Shown: positions 44,893 through 51,913 of the stretch, one piece after another
Position numbering within the stretch: the first letter of the stretch is position 1
Layout: every line of letters starts with the position of its first letter
NCBI GenBank assembly: GCA_022826755.1
Contig: JAJDUG010000055.1
Coordinates: forward strand, 62,001-126,000
DNA length: 64,000 nt
Origin: Acidobacteriota bacterium
GTDB lineage: Bacteria; Acidobacteriota; Terriglobia; Versatilivoradales; Versatilivoraceae
Direction of reading: 5' to 3'
The notes under the pieces: generated by a model
Told to the model about the DNA's origin: nothing
Database searches by the model: none
Seen by the model: the letters and a program-made list of their open reading frames with translations, nothing else
Made by a program: the position numbers and the translations under genes

Positions 44893-46368
44893 CTAGGCAA
44901 TAATATCCTGGACGATGCGGGCGGGAAACTCGTCCGTCAGTCTTTCGTTACGGCCCTCGCGCTCGAAGATCAACTGCCGGTGGTTCATGCCCAGCAGGTG
45001 AAGGATGGTGGCGTGGAAGTCGTGCACGCTGACGGGGTTTTCTGCCGCCTTGTAGCCGATGTCGTCGGTGGCCCCGTAGACGGTACCCGCCTTGATGCCG
45101 CCACCAGCCAGCCAGACACTGAATCCGGAGGGGCCGTGATCGCGCCCCACCTCCCCGCTGGCGGGCTGCTGTGCGATGGGAAGGCGTCCGAATTCTCCTC
45201 CCCAAACCACCAGCGTGCGGTCCAACAATCCCCGCAGCTTCAAGTCCTCTAGGAGCGCCGCGGCCGGCTTGTCCGTCTTGCGGCAGGCATAGCCCAGGTT
45301 CTTGACCAGGGCGTTGTGGTTGTCCCAGATCTGGCCTTCGATGTAGATCTGCACCATCCGGACTCCCCGCTCCACCAATCTTCGCGCCATCAGGCAGCGC
45401 TTGCCGTAAGAAGCGGTCTGCTCGTCGTTGAGGCCATACATTTCCTTGGTGGCCTCGGATTCCCCGGAGACATCCAGAGCATCCGAAGCGGCCAATTGCA
45501 TGCGGGCCGCCAACTCGTAACCGGCAATGCGGGCTTCCAGTTCCGGTTCGTCCGGGTGCCGGCTCAAGTGGTGTCGATCCAGGTGCCTGAGAAGCGAACG
45601 GGACAGCTTCACCACCGGATTGGGCCACTCCTCCCTGGGATGCAGGTTCAACAGCGGCGAACCCTGGGACCGTACCCGGGTCCCCTGGTAGACGGCCGGC
45701 AGAAAGCCTGCCTGCCAGTTCTGGATGTCGTTGATGGGCAGCCCCTTGGGATCGTCCAGCACCACGTAGGCCGGCAGGTTCCGGTTCTCGGTGCCCAGGC
45801 CGTAGACCACCCAGGCGCCCAGCGAAGGCCGCCCGGGAAACATGCGCCCCGAGTGCATGGTGAACAGCGAGGACTCGTGGGCGATGTGGGGCGTGAACAT
45901 GGAGCGAATGACGGTAATGTCGTCCACCTGCTCCGCCAGGTGCGGCATCGCCTCCGACACCTCGATGCCCGATTCACCGTGCTTGGCAAACTTGAAGGGG
46001 GACGGCATGAGACCGCCGGCTTCCCGCACCGCTCGAATCTCGCTGGCCAGGTCGCGGCTGGGAGGCTGACCGGCGAACTTCTCCAGGGCGGGTTTGGGAT
46101 CCAGCAGATCCACCTGGCTGGGCCCGCCGTTCATGAACAACTGTATGACCGAGGTGGCCTTGGGCTCGAAATGGGGGTCTTGCTTATTCAGATCGTAAAC
46201 CTGGCGCGAACCTGCCGCCAGCAGGGAATCGGGTCCCAGCAGGTCCGTCCCCAGCAAGGTGGCCAAGGCGGCTCCCTGAAGGCCGTCTCCCACCCGGGAA
46301 AAGAAGGTTCGCCTGTCCATGGGGTCCGGGCGACTCCCGGCGCCGGCATGCCGTTGTCTGGATTTCAT
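44893..46368 (-). CDS. DUF1501 family secreted protein
   Basis: The 491-residue product has a Tat-like start (MDRRTFFSRVGDGLQGAALA, 16 residues in). It shows the DUF1501 landmarks: VIQLFMNGGPSQVDLLDPKP, GIEVSEAMPHLAEQ, IRSMFTPHIAHESSLF, RPSLGAWVVYGLG, WDNHNALVKN, LVVWGGEFGRLP and VSVHDFHATILHLLGM. The fold is that of the alkaline phosphatase/sulfatase group. It is nearly always paired with a PSCyt1/DUF1549/DUF1553 gene, which lies 53 bp upstream here on the same strand. GAGGAA precedes ATG at 46368. The pair is thought to act on polymers outside the cytoplasm; the biochemical role is not established. Confidence 0.9.
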   Translation of the reverse strand: MKSRQRHAGAGSRPDPMDRRTFFSRVGDGLQGAALATLLGTDLLGPDSLLAAGSRQVYDLNKQDPHFEPKATSVIQLFMNGGPSQVDLLDPKPALEKFAGQPPSRDLASEIRAVREAGGLMPSPFKFAKHGESGIEVSEAMPHLAEQVDDITVIRSMFTPHIAHESSLFTMHSGRMFPGRPSLGAWVVYGLGTENRNLPAYVVLDDPKGLPINDIQNWQAGFLPAVYQGTRVRSQGSPLLNLHPREEWPNPVVKLSRSLLRHLDRHHLSRHPDEPELEARIAGYELAARMQLAASDALDVSGESEATKEMYGLNDEQTASYGKRCLMARRLVERGVRMVQIYIEGQIWDNHNALVKNLGYACRKTDKPAAALLEDLKLRGLLDRTLVVWGGEFGRLPIAQQPASGEVGRDHGPSGFSVWLAGGGIKAGTVYGATDDIGYKAAENPVSVHDFHATILHLLGMNHRQLIFEREGRNERLTDEFPARIVQDIIA

Positions 46369-46421
46369 CGGATCTGTTCCTCGATTGCGGCTCCTGTCCT
46401 GCCTCGGAAATACGGGTCTTC

Positions 46422-49400
46422 TCAATTCACATACAGAAATTCGGCGGAGTTGAGAAACGTGTGACACAAGGATGCCAGCGCCAGCCATTCGGCCTTGCTG
46501 GCTACCGGCTCCGCCGGAACCTCCACTTCCAGATGCCGCTTCCATTCGCGGGTCAAGCTGCCGAGGACTTCCTCGGCCTTGGCGGACTCCTTGGCAGTGG
46601 GCGGCCGGCTCAGTGCCAGCAGGTAGACCCGCTCGATCTGCCTGGAAGGATCCTCCCCCACGGCGTCGATCACCCGACCGGCCATGTGGCGTGCGCTGAG
46701 GCGCACCAACTGGCTGTTCTCCAGTTGCAGGGCCTGGGATGAAACCGTGGAATGGGGCCGCTTGAGGCAGTTGGGCACCAGCAGCGGGGCATCGAAGGAC
46801 TCCAGCAGGCTGAGGGGCTGGGAACGCCTCTGCTTCACGTAGATGCTTCTCCGGTAACCCTTGGGACTCTCCTTGGCGATCACCTCTCCGTCGGGCTTGA
46901 CCTCCAGCTCGTCGGCGGGACCGTAGCGGGTCGGGTCCAGCCGGCCGGCGACCCAGAGAATGGAATCCCTGAGAGCGTCCGCATCCATCCGTCTCAATGG
47001 GAAACGGGACAGGAGGAGATTGTCGGGATCGCTCTCCAGGGAGAGACGTCCGGCGCTGGAGGTCTGCCGGTAGGCCGTGGAGGTCATGACCAGGCGGTGC
47101 AGGGACTTCAGGCTCCAACCGCCATCCACGAACTCGCGGGCCAGCCAGTCCAGCAGCCTGGGATGGGATGGCCGCGCTCCGGTGCTTCCGAAGTTGCCGG
47201 GCGTGCTCACCAGCCCCACGCCGAAGTGATGCTGCCAGATGCGGTTCACCATGACCCGGGCCGTCAGAGGATGGTTGGGTTGAGTCAACCACTTGGCCAG
47301 GGCCAGACGCCGCCCGGTGGTTTCGGTGCTCCAGTCGGGCTTTTCCACCCGGTAGGGCGTCAGCTCACCGTTAAGCACCGCCGGCACCCCGGGCAGCACC
47401 TGGTCCCCGGGGTTGGTGTATTCGCCCCGTCCCAGAATCCGAGTGGGCGTGGGACGACCTCCCATGTCGAACAGCGCGCGAATCTTGGGCTTGTCTTTCA
47501 GCTTCTTCTTCTCGTCCTTGATCTGCTCCTCGATTTCCTTGGAGGCCTCGGCAAAGTCCTCGAACCTCTGAAGGAGATCGGCCTGGGTCACCTGAAGAGT
47601 CTGGGCGAACTTGTCCAGCAGGTACTTCTGAACCGGGGTTCGTTTGTCGGGCTCAGCCTGCGAGGCCTCTTCCAGATCCTGGCGCAGGGACTCGGGAAGG
47701 GCCGCCATTTTCTCCTCGAGAATCTGCTTGCGGAGGGGCCGGGCTTTCTGCTCCAGTTGCCGTTCCAGCTCCGCGATCTTGCGCTTGAAGGGAGCGTTGT
47801 GCTCCTCGACGTCCCGCAATTCTCCAGGTGAAGGCAGCGGCAACAACCGGGTGTTGGAATCGTTGCAACTGGCTCCCACCCCGATGCAGCCCATGCTGGG
47901 GGAGAGCCAGTCGTAGGGATCGTAGGCCGTCCTCAAGATGGCGCTCAGGGAATAGTAGTCCCGCTGGGACAGCGGATCGAACTTGTGGTCGTGGCAGCGG
48001 GCGCAAGCCAGCGTCAGCCCCATGGTGGAAGAGCTCAGGATTTCAATCTGGGTGGCCACCACGTCCAGCCGCTCCGGCAGGTTGTTCTGCTCGGTGCTGT
48101 AGGTCGAGTCCGGTCCCATCCGCAGGAAGCCGGTGGCCACCAGCAGGTCCAACTGATCGGGACCGTAGGTCTCCGCGGCCTTGTAGTCGAACAGCTCATC
48201 CCCGGCAAGCTGTTCGGTCAGGAACCGGTCGTAGGGCTTGTCGGCATTCAGCGACCGTATGACGTAGTCGCGGTAACGGAAGGCGTGGGGGCGGACTTCG
48301 TCGGAGGAAACCCCTCCTTCGGAATCGGCATAGCCCACCGCGTCCAGCCAGTAGCGTGCCCAGCGCTCGCCGTAGTGGGGAGATTCCAGTAGGCGGTCCA
48401 CCAGGCGCTCGTAAGCCCGAGGGTCGGAGTCGGCCAGGTAGGCCCGGATCTCCTCGGGAGAGGGCGGAAGACCAACCAGGTCGAGGTGAGCCCTCCTCAT
48501 CAAGGCGAGGCGGCCGGCCGGAGGGGAATAGCCCAGGTCCTCCGCCTCCAATCGAGCCAGCAGAAAGGCGTCTATCGGGTTCCGGATGCGATCCCTTCCC
48601 TTCACCCCGGGTTCCTCCGGGCGGCTGGGCGGTTGAAAGGACCAGAATTGCCGGTCCTTGGAGCCTGCTGTTGAAACCCGGCCCGGGTCGGTTTCGGGAG
48701 GCTTTTCGGGATCGGGAGGCGCGCCCGCGGCAATCCAGGCCTGCACCTTCGCGAACTCGACCGAGGTCAGGCCGCGCACCGAGAACTGTTCCTGAAGCTG
48801 GGGCGGCGGCATCTCCTGGGCTTGGATGCGCCGAACCAGCAGACTCTCCTCCGGTTGGCCGGGAACGATGGCCGGACCCGACTTCCCCCCTTTCAACAGA
48901 TCCTCGCGGGTCCTGAGGTCCAGACCGGCTTCCTGGCGCCTGCGGCCGTGGCAGGGCAAGCACTTGGCCCCCAGAATGGCCGCCATCACCTCCCGCTCGC
49001 GCACGGGGGGCGCGGTCGCGGGAAGGGGCGCTTCCGGGGTTTCCCCGGGCATCCCGGCTTCAATCCAGCGGCGGACCACTTCGATGGCGCCCGCCTCCAG
49101 CGGCTCCCCTCCCATGGGCATGCCGCCGGAGTTGATCAGGACCAGCAGCCGGCTCTCCAGAGGCTTGTGGGCCACCACCACCGATCCCGAGTCTCCGCCT
49201 GCCAGCACCCTTTCCAGACTCTCCAGGGACAGCCCGCCTTGACGGGCCTGGTCACTGTGACACTGCAGGCAATGCTGCCGGAAGATTGGCAGGACGTCGG
49301 TTTCGAAGCCGGGAGGACCTGCCTCTTGAGCAGGCAGGGAAAGGAGCCGCATTCCCATCAACCCGAGGATGAGCCATCCCTTGCGCCATCCGGAGCCGCA

Positions 49401-49457
49401 ATTCCGGGCGATCCAGGCTCTCTGCCTCCGTCCCGTGTACTGGGCTGTTGCTTTCAC
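46422..49457 (-). CDS. PSCyt1-DUF1549-DUF1553 protein (planctomycete-type cytochrome)
   Basis: The 1011-residue exported protein has an N-terminal signal (GWLILGLMGMRLLSL) and a haem-binding region with CLQCH near residue 60 and a second motif CLPCH near 165. DUF1549 follows (about 290-500; PIDAFLLARLEAEDL, RRAHLDLVGLPPSPEE, ERWARYWLDAVGYADSEG), with CARCHDHKFDP after it. A helical insertion of about 120 residues (KIAELERQLEQKARPL) separates it from DUF1553 (about 710-1000; VMVNRIWQHHFGVGLV, PSHPRLLDWLA, FPLRRMDADALRDSIL). GTG at 49457 has AGAGGA upstream. It forms an operon with the DUF1501 gene, a pairing typical of PVC and some Acidobacteriota. Confidence 0.92.
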   Translation of the reverse strand: MKATAQYTGRRQRAWIARNCGSGWRKGWLILGLMGMRLLSLPAQEAGPPGFETDVLPIFRQHCLQCHSDQARQGGLSLESLERVLAGGDSGSVVVAHKPLESRLLVLINSGGMPMGGEPLEAGAIEVVRRWIEAGMPGETPEAPLPATAPPVREREVMAAILGAKCLPCHGRRRQEAGLDLRTREDLLKGGKSGPAIVPGQPEESLLVRRIQAQEMPPPQLQEQFSVRGLTSVEFAKVQAWIAAGAPPDPEKPPETDPGRVSTAGSKDRQFWSFQPPSRPEEPGVKGRDRIRNPIDAFLLARLEAEDLGYSPPAGRLALMRRAHLDLVGLPPSPEEIRAYLADSDPRAYERLVDRLLESPHYGERWARYWLDAVGYADSEGGVSSDEVRPHAFRYRDYVIRSLNADKPYDRFLTEQLAGDELFDYKAAETYGPDQLDLLVATGFLRMGPDSTYSTEQNNLPERLDVVATQIEILSSSTMGLTLACARCHDHKFDPLSQRDYYSLSAILRTAYDPYDWLSPSMGCIGVGASCNDSNTRLLPLPSPGELRDVEEHNAPFKRKIAELERQLEQKARPLRKQILEEKMAALPESLRQDLEEASQAEPDKRTPVQKYLLDKFAQTLQVTQADLLQRFEDFAEASKEIEEQIKDEKKKLKDKPKIRALFDMGGRPTPTRILGRGEYTNPGDQVLPGVPAVLNGELTPYRVEKPDWSTETTGRRLALAKWLTQPNHPLTARVMVNRIWQHHFGVGLVSTPGNFGSTGARPSHPRLLDWLAREFVDGGWSLKSLHRLVMTSTAYRQTSSAGRLSLESDPDNLLLSRFPLRRMDADALRDSILWVAGRLDPTRYGPADELEVKPDGEVIAKESPKGYRRSIYVKQRRSQPLSLLESFDAPLLVPNCLKRPHSTVSSQALQLENSQLVRLSARHMAGRVIDAVGEDPSRQIERVYLLALSRPPTAKESAKAEEVLGSLTREWKRHLEVEVPAEPVASKAEWLALASLCHTFLNSAEFLYVN

Positions 49458-49577
49458 GATGAAGTCCTCTGAGGTGCGATTATATCACCCCGAAGCCTCC
49501 GATGCGGCGCCGGCATGCAGCCCTTGGTGTATGATCTTCGGGCGTGCATCCCCAAGGCATCCGGTTCCGAAAGACCC

Positions 49578-51014
49578 ATGGCCATCGACGTCAAGACCCG
49601 ACTGCAGGAACTCTACCGGCAGTGGTGCGGCGAGCCTGCCGAGGAGATGGCGCCGGTCTCGGCCGATGGATCGGTCCGACGCTATTTCCGGATCACCGGA
49701 GGGCGGCGTTCGATCATCGGCGCCTTCAACCCGGACCGCAAGGAGAACCGGGCTTTCCTGAACCTCTCCGGCCACTTTCACCGCCACGGTCTTCCGGTGC
49801 CGGAAATCTACGCCTCGGACCTGGACCGCCACGTCTACCTGCAGCAGGACCTGGGTGACGTCACCCTCTATTCACTGGTCTCGACCCAGGGCCGGGAGGA
49901 GGGATTCTCAGACCGGCTGGCCGGTCTCTACCGGCAGGCCCTGGAGACGCTGGCCCGCTTCCAGATCGTCGGCGGCCGGGGTCTCGACACCTCGGAGTGC
50001 TACCCGCGACCCTGCTTCGATCGGCAGTCCATGCGCTGGGACCTGAACTATTTCAAGTACCACTTCCTGAAGCTGGTGGAAATTCCCTTCGAGGAGCAGG
50101 CCCTGGAGGACGACTTCGACACCTTGATCGACTTTCTGATGGAAGCCGACACCAACCACTTCCTCTACCGCGACTTCCAGTCCCGCAACCTCATGTGGTT
50201 TCAGGAGCAGCTCTACGGCATCGACTACCAGGGGGGGCGAAAGGGGGCGTTGCAGTACGACGTGGCCTCACTGCTGCTGGACGGCAAGGCAGACCTGCCC
50301 TGGTCCCTGAGGAATCGGTTGCTGGATCATTACCTGGGAGTGGCCGGCAATCTGACCCCCCTCCAACCGGATGCTTTCCTTCGCTTCTACCGGCCCTACG
50401 CCCTGTTGCGCCTGATGCAGGCCTTCGGCGCCTACGGTTACCGGGGGCTTCACCAGGGCAAGAGCCACTTCGTGGCCAGCATTCCCTATGCTCTGGGCAC
50501 TCTGGAAGGACTCCTGGCTCAGGGGGCCTTGCCGGTCCGGCTGCCTGCGTTGTCGGAGGTATGGCGGCGCATGATCGGATCCGATTCCCTGCGCCGGAAA
50601 GGGCGGGAGCAACGACCGGGGCTCACGGTTCACCTCAGGAGCTTTTCCTACAAGCAGGGCCTGCCCCGGGACCGGACCGGGCATGGGGGAGGATTCGTTT
50701 TCGACTGCCGCATCCTGCCCAATCCCGGGCGGTTTTCGGCTTATGCTCATCTGACCGGCCAGGACGGTGAGGTCATCCGCTTTCTGCAACAGGACCAGGA
50801 GGTTCAGCGGTTTTTGAGGAAGACGGAAGACCTGGTGGACCAGGCGGTCACTCACCACCTGGGGCGAAACTTCACCGATCTGACGGTCGCCTTCGGCTGC
50901 ACCGGCGGGCGCCACCGGTCGGTGTTCTGCGCCGAGCGCCTGGCAGCCCACCTGCAATCCCGGAAGGACCTTCGGGTCGATCTTCATCACCGCGAGCTGG
51001 CGGCCCTGTCATGA
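49578..51014 (+). CDS. sugar-kinase-like phosphotransferase fused to a RapZ C-terminal domain
   Basis: The 478-residue product has two parts. Residues of about 1-325 match the aminoglycoside-phosphotransferase fold of AmgK-like anomeric sugar kinases: SADGSVRRYFRITG, LQQDLGDVTLYSLV, the catalytic loop FLYRDFQSRNLMW, and GIDYQGGRKGALQYDVASLL. Residues of about 350-475 match the C-terminal domain of RapZ: SFSYKQGLPRD, DCRILPNP, FGCTGGRHRSVF and VDLHHREL. AmgK phosphorylates MurNAc or GlcNAc at C1 in wall recycling, and the RapZ C-terminal domain senses glucosamine-6-phosphate. The RapZ N-terminal P-loop domain is absent. The stop overlaps the start of a MurU-like gene (ATGA). ATG at 49578 begins the conserved part. 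Confidence 0.85.
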   Translation: MAIDVKTRLQELYRQWCGEPAEEMAPVSADGSVRRYFRITGGRRSIIGAFNPDRKENRAFLNLSGHFHRHGLPVPEIYASDLDRHVYLQQDLGDVTLYSLVSTQGREEGFSDRLAGLYRQALETLARFQIVGGRGLDTSECYPRPCFDRQSMRWDLNYFKYHFLKLVEIPFEEQALEDDFDTLIDFLMEADTNHFLYRDFQSRNLMWFQEQLYGIDYQGGRKGALQYDVASLLLDGKADLPWSLRNRLLDHYLGVAGNLTPLQPDAFLRFYRPYALLRLMQAFGAYGYRGLHQGKSHFVASIPYALGTLEGLLAQGALPVRLPALSEVWRRMIGSDSLRRKGREQRPGLTVHLRSFSYKQGLPRDRTGHGGGFVFDCRILPNPGRFSAYAHLTGQDGEVIRFLQQDQEVQRFLRKTEDLVDQAVTHHLGRNFTDLTVAFGCTGGRHRSVFCAERLAAHLQSRKDLRVDLHHRELAALS

Positions 51015-51913
51015 AAGCCATGATCCTGGCAGCGGGACGGGGAACGCGCCTGGGCCCGCTGGGCCGGCAAAAGCCCAAGGCTCTGGTGGAAATTCAGGGG
51101 ATCCCCCTGTTGGCCGGGGTCATCTCTCGTTTGGCTCAACAGGATTTCAGGGAAATCATCGTCAACACCCACCACCTGGCGGACCTGGTGGATGAATTTC
51201 TGACCGGTTTCCGCCGGCGTCACCGCCTGGCCGGGCTCACCCTGGAGGTCTCCCGGGAAGAACGACTGCTGGACACCGGCGGGGGCGTGCAACGAGCCGG
51301 CTGGTTCTTCGATGACGGCCAACCCTTTCTGGTCCACAACGTGGACGTGCTCACCGACCTGCACCTGGGACGACTGTTGCAGGCCCACCTCGATTCGGGA
51401 GCCCTGGCGACCCTGGCGGTCCGCCAACGAAAAAGCTCCCGGCGCCTGCTCTTCGATTACCGGGAACGCCTGTGCGGCTGGCAGTCCCTGGCCACCGGGC
51501 AAGAGCGCATGGCCCGCTCTCCGGACGGTCCGCTCACGCCCCTGTCCTTCATGGGCATCCAGGTGATCTCCCCCGCCCTGCTGGACGGGCTCACCCTCTC
51601 CCCACCCTTTTCGCTGGTGGATGCCTACCTGCAGGCGGCCGCCCAGGGACAGCCGATCCGGGCCTACCGCGCCGATGAGGCCAAGTGGGCGGACCTGGGC
51701 AGCCGGGAACGGTTCAAGCAGGCCGAGGAGATGTTCGAGCCGGATTTTTTCGCCGGACTGAGAGAGGGCCCCTGCCTGAAACAAAAGGAAAAAGAGCTGT
51801 CCACGAAGGCACATGAAGGACCACCAAGGACCACCAAGCGTGACGGCTCTGCCGCATCGGCACAGGTTGCGGCCCGGCAAGCCGGCGCCTGCCCCCTCGA
51901 GGAGCAAGAGTGA
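51011..51913 (+). CDS. MurU-like sugar-1-phosphate nucleotidyltransferase with a repeat-derived C-terminal tail
   Basis: The 300-residue protein has the nucleotidyltransferase signature MILAAGRGTRLGPL followed by KPKALVEIQG, then IIVNTHHLADLV, DTGGGVQRAGWFF, VHNVDVLTDL, LSFMGIQVISP and KWADLGSRERF. It closely follows the MurU pattern (MurNAc-1-phosphate uridylyltransferase). ATG overlaps the kinase stop. From about residue 253 the sequence (CLKQKEKELSTKAHEG and onward) is translation of the dispersed composite repeat. The last 45-50 residues are therefore probably not part of the ancestral enzyme. Together with the fused kinase this would convert a free amino sugar to its UDP form. Confidence 0.85.
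   Translation: MKAMILAAGRGTRLGPLGRQKPKALVEIQGIPLLAGVISRLAQQDFREIIVNTHHLADLVDEFLTGFRRRHRLAGLTLEVSREERLLDTGGGVQRAGWFFDDGQPFLVHNVDVLTDLHLGRLLQAHLDSGALATLAVRQRKSSRRLLFDYRERLCGWQSLATGQERMARSPDGPLTPLSFMGIQVISPALLDGLTLSPPFSLVDAYLQAAAQGQPIRAYRADEAKWADLGSRERFKQAEEMFEPDFFAGLREGPCLKQKEKELSTKAHEGPPRTTKRDGSAASAQVAARQAGACPLEEQE
51768..51845. repeat. composite dispersed repeat, copy inside the nucleotidyltransferase gene
   Basis: The copy reads GGGCCCCTGCCTGAAACA, AAAAAGAGCTGTCCACGAAG and GCACATGAAGGACCACCAAG. The order and spacing match the copies at 32.4-33.5 and 37.8 kb. It lies within the coding frame near the 3' end of the gene. Confidence 0.65.

Follow-up and report, generated by a model that had tools for sequence, protein, structure and literature searches.

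An AmgK-like kinase fused to the RapZ C-terminal domain and encoded with a MurU-like protein in an acidobacterial operon

A gene in the window, the 64,000-nucleotide stretch of Acidobacteriota DNA analysed here, joins an AmgK-like sugar kinase to the C-terminal domain of RapZ (RapZ_C) and is followed by a gene for a MurU-like nucleotidyltransferase. Judging from its homologues, this pair probably encodes a recycling kinase and a uridylyltransferase for the salvage of MurNAc to UDP-MurNAc. For RapZ_C we lean, tentatively, towards a role as a MurNAc-6-phosphate (MurNAc-6P) phosphatase that would feed the kinase. The fusion gene and its domains are:

49578..51014, plus strand: fusion gene, 478 aa, AmgK-type kinase and RapZ C-terminal domain (Pfam)
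49650..50336, plus strand: kinase (APH) domain, residues 25-253 (Pfam PF01636, E 1.5e-15; fold match 3csv, TMt 0.79)
50622..50999, plus strand: RapZ C-terminal domain, residues 349-474 (Pfam PF22740, E 4.6e-35; AF2 model)

Beyond APH and RapZ_C, Pfam detected no further domain in the 478-aa protein, and the RapZ N-terminal P-loop domain (PF03668) is absent. PDB matches were 3csv (APH) and the E. coli RapZ C-terminal domain. These searches confirm two claims of the initial annotation, that an AmgK-like kinase and RapZ_C are combined in one gene and that the kinase-like N-terminal domain of RapZ is missing. Against NCBIfam, the protein scored 61 bits with the AmgK models and 110 bits with RapZ, both under the strict cut-offs (550/500 for the AmgK equivalogs). 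Four relatives of the same class have the two genes in matching order, with identities of 47-50%, and a closer relative of the fusion is 87% identical. Since the two-gene order is kept in relatives, the fusion reading frame does not represent a chance frame. An alternative in-frame ATG lies at 49515. A sigma-70 promoter scan around the operon gave no match and was uninformative. Upstream, minus-strand genes at 44893-49457 diverge from the operon; by eye, we take their products to be a DUF1501-like protein and a large one whose CxxCH motifs are cytochrome-like.

The second gene overlaps the fusion gene by 4 bp (ATGA at 51011-51014):

51011..51913, plus strand: MurU-like nucleotidyltransferase gene (Pfam NTP_transferase; best NCBIfam family MurU; PDB)
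51758..51913, plus strand: C-terminal tail of the MurU-like reading frame, last ~50 residues, without counterpart in relatives (alignment; a further match stops near here)

MurU was its best NCBIfam family (E 1e-30, 107 bits against an equivalog cut-off of 250), as the initial annotation had proposed, and its top PDB match, 4y7t, was followed by 8hhd, a structure named MurU. MurU-like homology stops near residue 250 (about 51757). The tail (KEKELSTKAHEGPPRTTKRDG...) resembles a repeat (CCACGAAGGCACATGAAGGACCACCAAG) that has one copy within the window; it is probably repeat sequence read through into the end of the gene.

The host genome carries one glmS (808 bits) together with murA, so de novo synthesis looks intact. 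No second AmgK-like kinase was found elsewhere in the host genome, which makes the fusion its sole AmgK-like kinase. The second RapZ_C match in this genome is a separate, full-length RapZ in which the N-terminal domain is present.

The catalytic centre of the kinase is conserved:

50172..50225, plus strand: kinase catalytic residues D199, N204 and D216 (RDFQSRN ... DYQ), unchanged across 99 kinases of the fusion clade and 37 of the AmgK type

R198, Q218, G223, Y227, D228, S231 and R278 are likewise identical in all members of both sets, and murU lies at most 300 bp downstream in 63 of 93 fusion loci by a domain-based count. The retained AmgK-type residues and the neighbouring murU support the amino-sugar or MurNAc recycling role that had been assigned to the pair from the start. 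The APH domain is most likely an anomeric kinase of amino sugars, with MurNAc as the predicted substrate.

Could the kinase and uridylyltransferase serve another sugar instead, such as GlcNAc, heptose or a surface-glycan sugar? We consider this unlikely. It would be in line with the scores of both proteins, well under their NCBIfam equivalog cut-offs, and with fusion-specific changes near the active site, where the fusion clade mostly has Y, G, D and Q in place of H197, D219, E155 and K281 of AmgK-type kinases. However, the AmgK homologues of A. baumannii and Legionella also score below the cut-off (246-263 of 550 bits), the closest characterised homologues of the two proteins are AmgK and MurU, and the link to AnmK described below is strong. 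Furthermore, T. forsythia AmgK-MurU expressed in E. coli accept MurNAc probes (PMC13041923); Parabacteroides, a member of the T. forsythia family, has the fusion, which T. forsythia AmgK may or may not share.

We found the fusion in 5 of 199 genomes of the same phylum, all five from one class and each followed by a MurU-like gene. The remaining classes of Acidobacteriota mostly possess a bare AmgK-like kinase and a separate RapZ. Similar fusions in other phyla, which the initial annotation had thought possible, do occur. The best 80 of a larger number of relatives in a species-genome scan cover at least about nine phyla among the matches listed (Bacteroidota, Ignavibacteriota, Calditrichota, Neomarinimicrobiota, Elusimicrobiota, Verrucomicrobiota, Latescibacterota, Acidobacteriota and one Deferribacteres MAG). 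Among 148 Bacteroidota species, RapZ_C occurs in 20 (17 fused, 3 as a separate reading frame of 134-149 aa) and canonical RapZ in none. Across 26 fusion genomes, canonical RapZ is found alongside the fusion in Acidobacteriota and Elusimicrobiota; the others contain the fusion only. No kinase-RapZ_C fusion was detected on phage among the viral contigs searched. The literature searched contained no paper describing such a fusion, in agreement with the earlier statement that no characterised one was known. The APH-RapZ_C architecture is thus widespread and already in databases, but is not known to have been studied.

In the kinase tree, all kinases of the fusion type fall into a single clade (SH-aLRT 99), separate from the AmgK proteins of Proteobacteria, Bacteroidota and Acidobacteriota. 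The protein of the window clusters with one from Latescibacterota, away from the other acidobacterial fusions, and this grouping suggests that the fusion was acquired twice within Acidobacteriota. Split forms require three changes on the tree. Three Bacteroidota genomes encode the kinase, RapZ_C (133-135 aa) and MurU as three adjacent genes. Because an independent RapZ_C gene is retained there, in the middle of the operon, the domain can work in trans. Another genome, G233, has the fusion-clade kinase and MurU and has lost RapZ_C. A Calditrichaceae contig (L089:4861-4960) shows an in-frame TGA between kinase and RapZ_C, either a recent split or a sequencing error.

RapZ_C contains a strictly conserved cysteine loop:

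50898..50921, plus strand: CX5R(S) phosphate loop C441-T-G-G-R-H-R447-S448 (E. coli C247-R253-S254), GCTGGxHRS in 119 of 119 RapZ_C sequences examined; AF2 model

When 93 fused, 4 split and 19 canonical domains were compared, C247, T248, G249, G250, H252, R253, S254, D182, R184, N188, P189, S166, F167 and H276 (E. coli numbers) never varied. The AF2 model of RapZ_C (pLDDT 94) superimposed on E. coli RapZ chains with TM 0.75-0.88, and in it a strand terminates at C441 and a helix begins with R447. This placement of a C-x5-R-S loop is the arrangement in the phosphate loops of Cys-based phosphatases. The Foldseek matches listed included no protein tyrosine phosphatase (PTP) fold, with RapZ as the sole confident match, and a sequence-profile search of the C-terminal domain for PTPs or other PDB families confidently matched RapZ alone. 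The CX5R likeness to PTPs is therefore local and does not reflect homology. The invariant Cys and the CX5R motif would nevertheless allow a catalytic rather than a sensory role for RapZ_C.

E. coli RapZ_C forms dimers (PMC7073468, PMC5737377) and binds GlcN6P tightly and specifically, with slow release and a KD of 10 nM for the C-terminal domain (PMC7073468). Its pocket has been seen with sulphate, malonate and probably GlcN6P (PMC5737377, PMC9841335). C247A and C247S variants are both inactive; the authors suggested a catalytic thiol and noted that the GlcN6P density appeared chemically transformed, and phosphatases are unmentioned in their paper (PMC9841335).

Dimer formation and GlcN6P binding suit the main rival to the phosphatase reading, which is close to the idea of the initial annotation: RapZ_C would be an allosteric or dimerisation module that binds GlcN6P, GlcNAc-6P or MurNAc-6P and tunes an AmgK-type kinase to amino-sugar supply. 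We regard this as a serious possibility, though short of an even chance. Besides the specific GlcN6P binding and dimer formation in E. coli, it is in keeping with the conserved phosphate pocket of the fusions, with de novo production of GlcN6P in the host genome, and with the presence of MurQ in most fusion genomes, through which MurNAc can flow to GlcN6P. Against it, the E. coli pocket residue H190 is G in 93 of 93 fusions, which also share a specific Gly-rich insert (G368, G370); their ligand may therefore not be that of E. coli RapZ. A binding loop would not need the invariant catalytic-type Cys, and even C247S is inactive in E. coli. In addition, several split operons retain RapZ_C as a gene of its own.

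RNA is bound by RapZ_C in E. coli, and in Bacteroides and Parabacteroides NCBI lists the fusion as 'RNase adapter RapZ' despite the missing N domain. Both facts would suit a RapZ_C that handles no ligand in the fusion and is a remnant, either structural or binding RNA or protein. We judge this improbable: R238, one RNA-contacting residue in E. coli RapZ, is replaced by F or W in fusions while the pocket is invariant, and the domain is kept in about nine phyla among the matches listed as well as in split genes. An Rfam search of the window found no GlmZ-like or other known RNA, and with R238 replaced, regulation of the GlmZ type is unsupported.

Stand-alone RapZ_C proteins of roughly 110-200 aa are encoded on viral contigs and by Rhizobium phage RHph_TM16, where the gene adjoins epimerase and ArnB-like aminotransferase genes. 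The viral-contig copies all keep GCTGGRHR, with the Cys and the Arg, some having HRA in place of HRS. The record of Microcystis phage MaAM05 has a RapZ-like gene beside a gluconeogenesis factor (YvcK-like) gene. It may be host sequence; rapZ-yvcK is a bacterial pairing that this record matches.

The phosphatase reading draws on genome context. AnmK produces MurNAc-6P, MurQ diverts it toward GlcNAc-6P, and MupP dephosphorylates it for AmgK-MurU (PMC5371407, PMC5371409). AnmK was present in 39 of 50 genomes whose kinase has RapZ_C, fused or split, in 2 of 52 with a bare AmgK-like kinase (0 of 27 Bacteroidota, 2 of 25 Acidobacteriota), and in 53 of 58 without an AmgK-like kinase. Over the 102 genomes with either type of kinase, the association had a Fisher p of 1e-15, a value that takes no account of common descent; all fused kinases belong to one clade, and the bare-kinase Bacteroidota perhaps to a few. 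Of 30 fusion genomes with AnmK, 7 had no full-length MurQ (versus 0 of 30 controls), and the host genome belongs to these 7. No MupP-like HAD was found in the host genome, where three weak HAD matches reached 23 bits at best against a cut-off of 359. Both AnmK and MurQ were missing in 7 of 40 fusion/split genomes, some of which are probably incomplete MAGs. Thus, RapZ_C goes with MurNAc-6P metabolism, a pattern most consistent with a phosphatase in genomes that lack MurQ, and about equally consistent with a sensor in those that have it. We also noted 26 Bacteroidota genomes of about 2-3 Mb that have a bare AmgK-like kinase without AnmK; none of the bare-kinase Bacteroidota genomes examined for MurQ has it.

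We propose a two-gene muramic-acid salvage operon in which RapZ_C would act on the 6-phosphorylated amino sugar of the MurNAc route. AnmK would make MurNAc-6P from anhydro-MurNAc, and the CX5R(S) loop would receive it. RapZ_C, as a cysteine-dependent phosphatase replacing the HAD phosphatase MupP, would free MurNAc beside the kinase, so that the product may be channelled. The APH domain, predicted to be an anomeric kinase for MurNAc and probably also GlcNAc, would then yield MurNAc-1-phosphate, which the second protein would uridylylate to UDP-MurNAc as in the AmgK-MurU route. MurA is bypassed by that route.

We prefer a phosphatase because of the invariant CX5R(S) loop, the loss of activity of E. 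coli C247A and C247S, the co-occurrence with AnmK and the lack of MurQ and MupP in the host genome, and because G233, where RapZ_C is lost, has neither AnmK nor MurQ. Several observations speak against it and keep our preference tentative. RapZ_C has no global fold similarity to PTPs, and tight GlcN6P binding with slow release by E. coli RapZ suits a sensor (PMC7073468). AnmK is missing in 11 of the 50 fusion/split genomes, and its co-occurrence is phylogenetically non-independent. Where present, as in most fusion genomes, MurQ would compete for MurNAc-6P. Other HAD proteins of the host genome (GmhB-like, YihX-like, TIGR01458) could perform the phosphatase step.

A broader proposal, which we put forward with reserve as something that may well prove wrong, is that RapZ_C represents an unrecognised family of cysteine-dependent sugar-phosphate phosphatases. 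The fusion would then be a bifunctional MurNAc-6P phosphatase/MurNAc 1-kinase, and RapZ, the RNA regulator, would either have evolved from an enzyme of this kind or remain one. An enzymatic RapZ_C would supply the missing step from MurNAc-6P to MurNAc in the cell-wall recycling of Bacteroidota and several other phyla, account for the thiol requirement of RapZ, and show 'RNase adapter' to be a wrong database name for these kinases. It would also offer a testable clue to how RapZ handles GlcN6P. The sensor version, if true, would provide an amino-sugar-regulated entry to UDP-MurNAc, and fosfomycin tolerance is linked with this route.

Compared with known systems, the fusion shares with AmgK the APH fold, the catalytic residues and an adjacent murU, but differs by the added RapZ_C, its distinct clade, the active-site substitutions and the sub-equivalog score. 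With RapZ/YvcJ it has in common the C-terminal domain with the GCTGGxHRS pocket (38-40% identity to E. coli RapZ), including C247, T248, G249, H252 and R253, whereas the N-terminal P-loop domain, H190 and R238 are not kept. MupP, the MurNAc-6P phosphatase of Pseudomonas, catalyses the same reaction as proposed for RapZ_C upstream of AmgK-MurU, but is a HAD phosphatase, while the C-terminal domain of the fusion has the RapZ fold. Finally, Cys-based phosphatases (CX5R) differ from RapZ_C in overall fold (Foldseek) but share the C-x-x-G-x-x-R-S loop between strand and helix.
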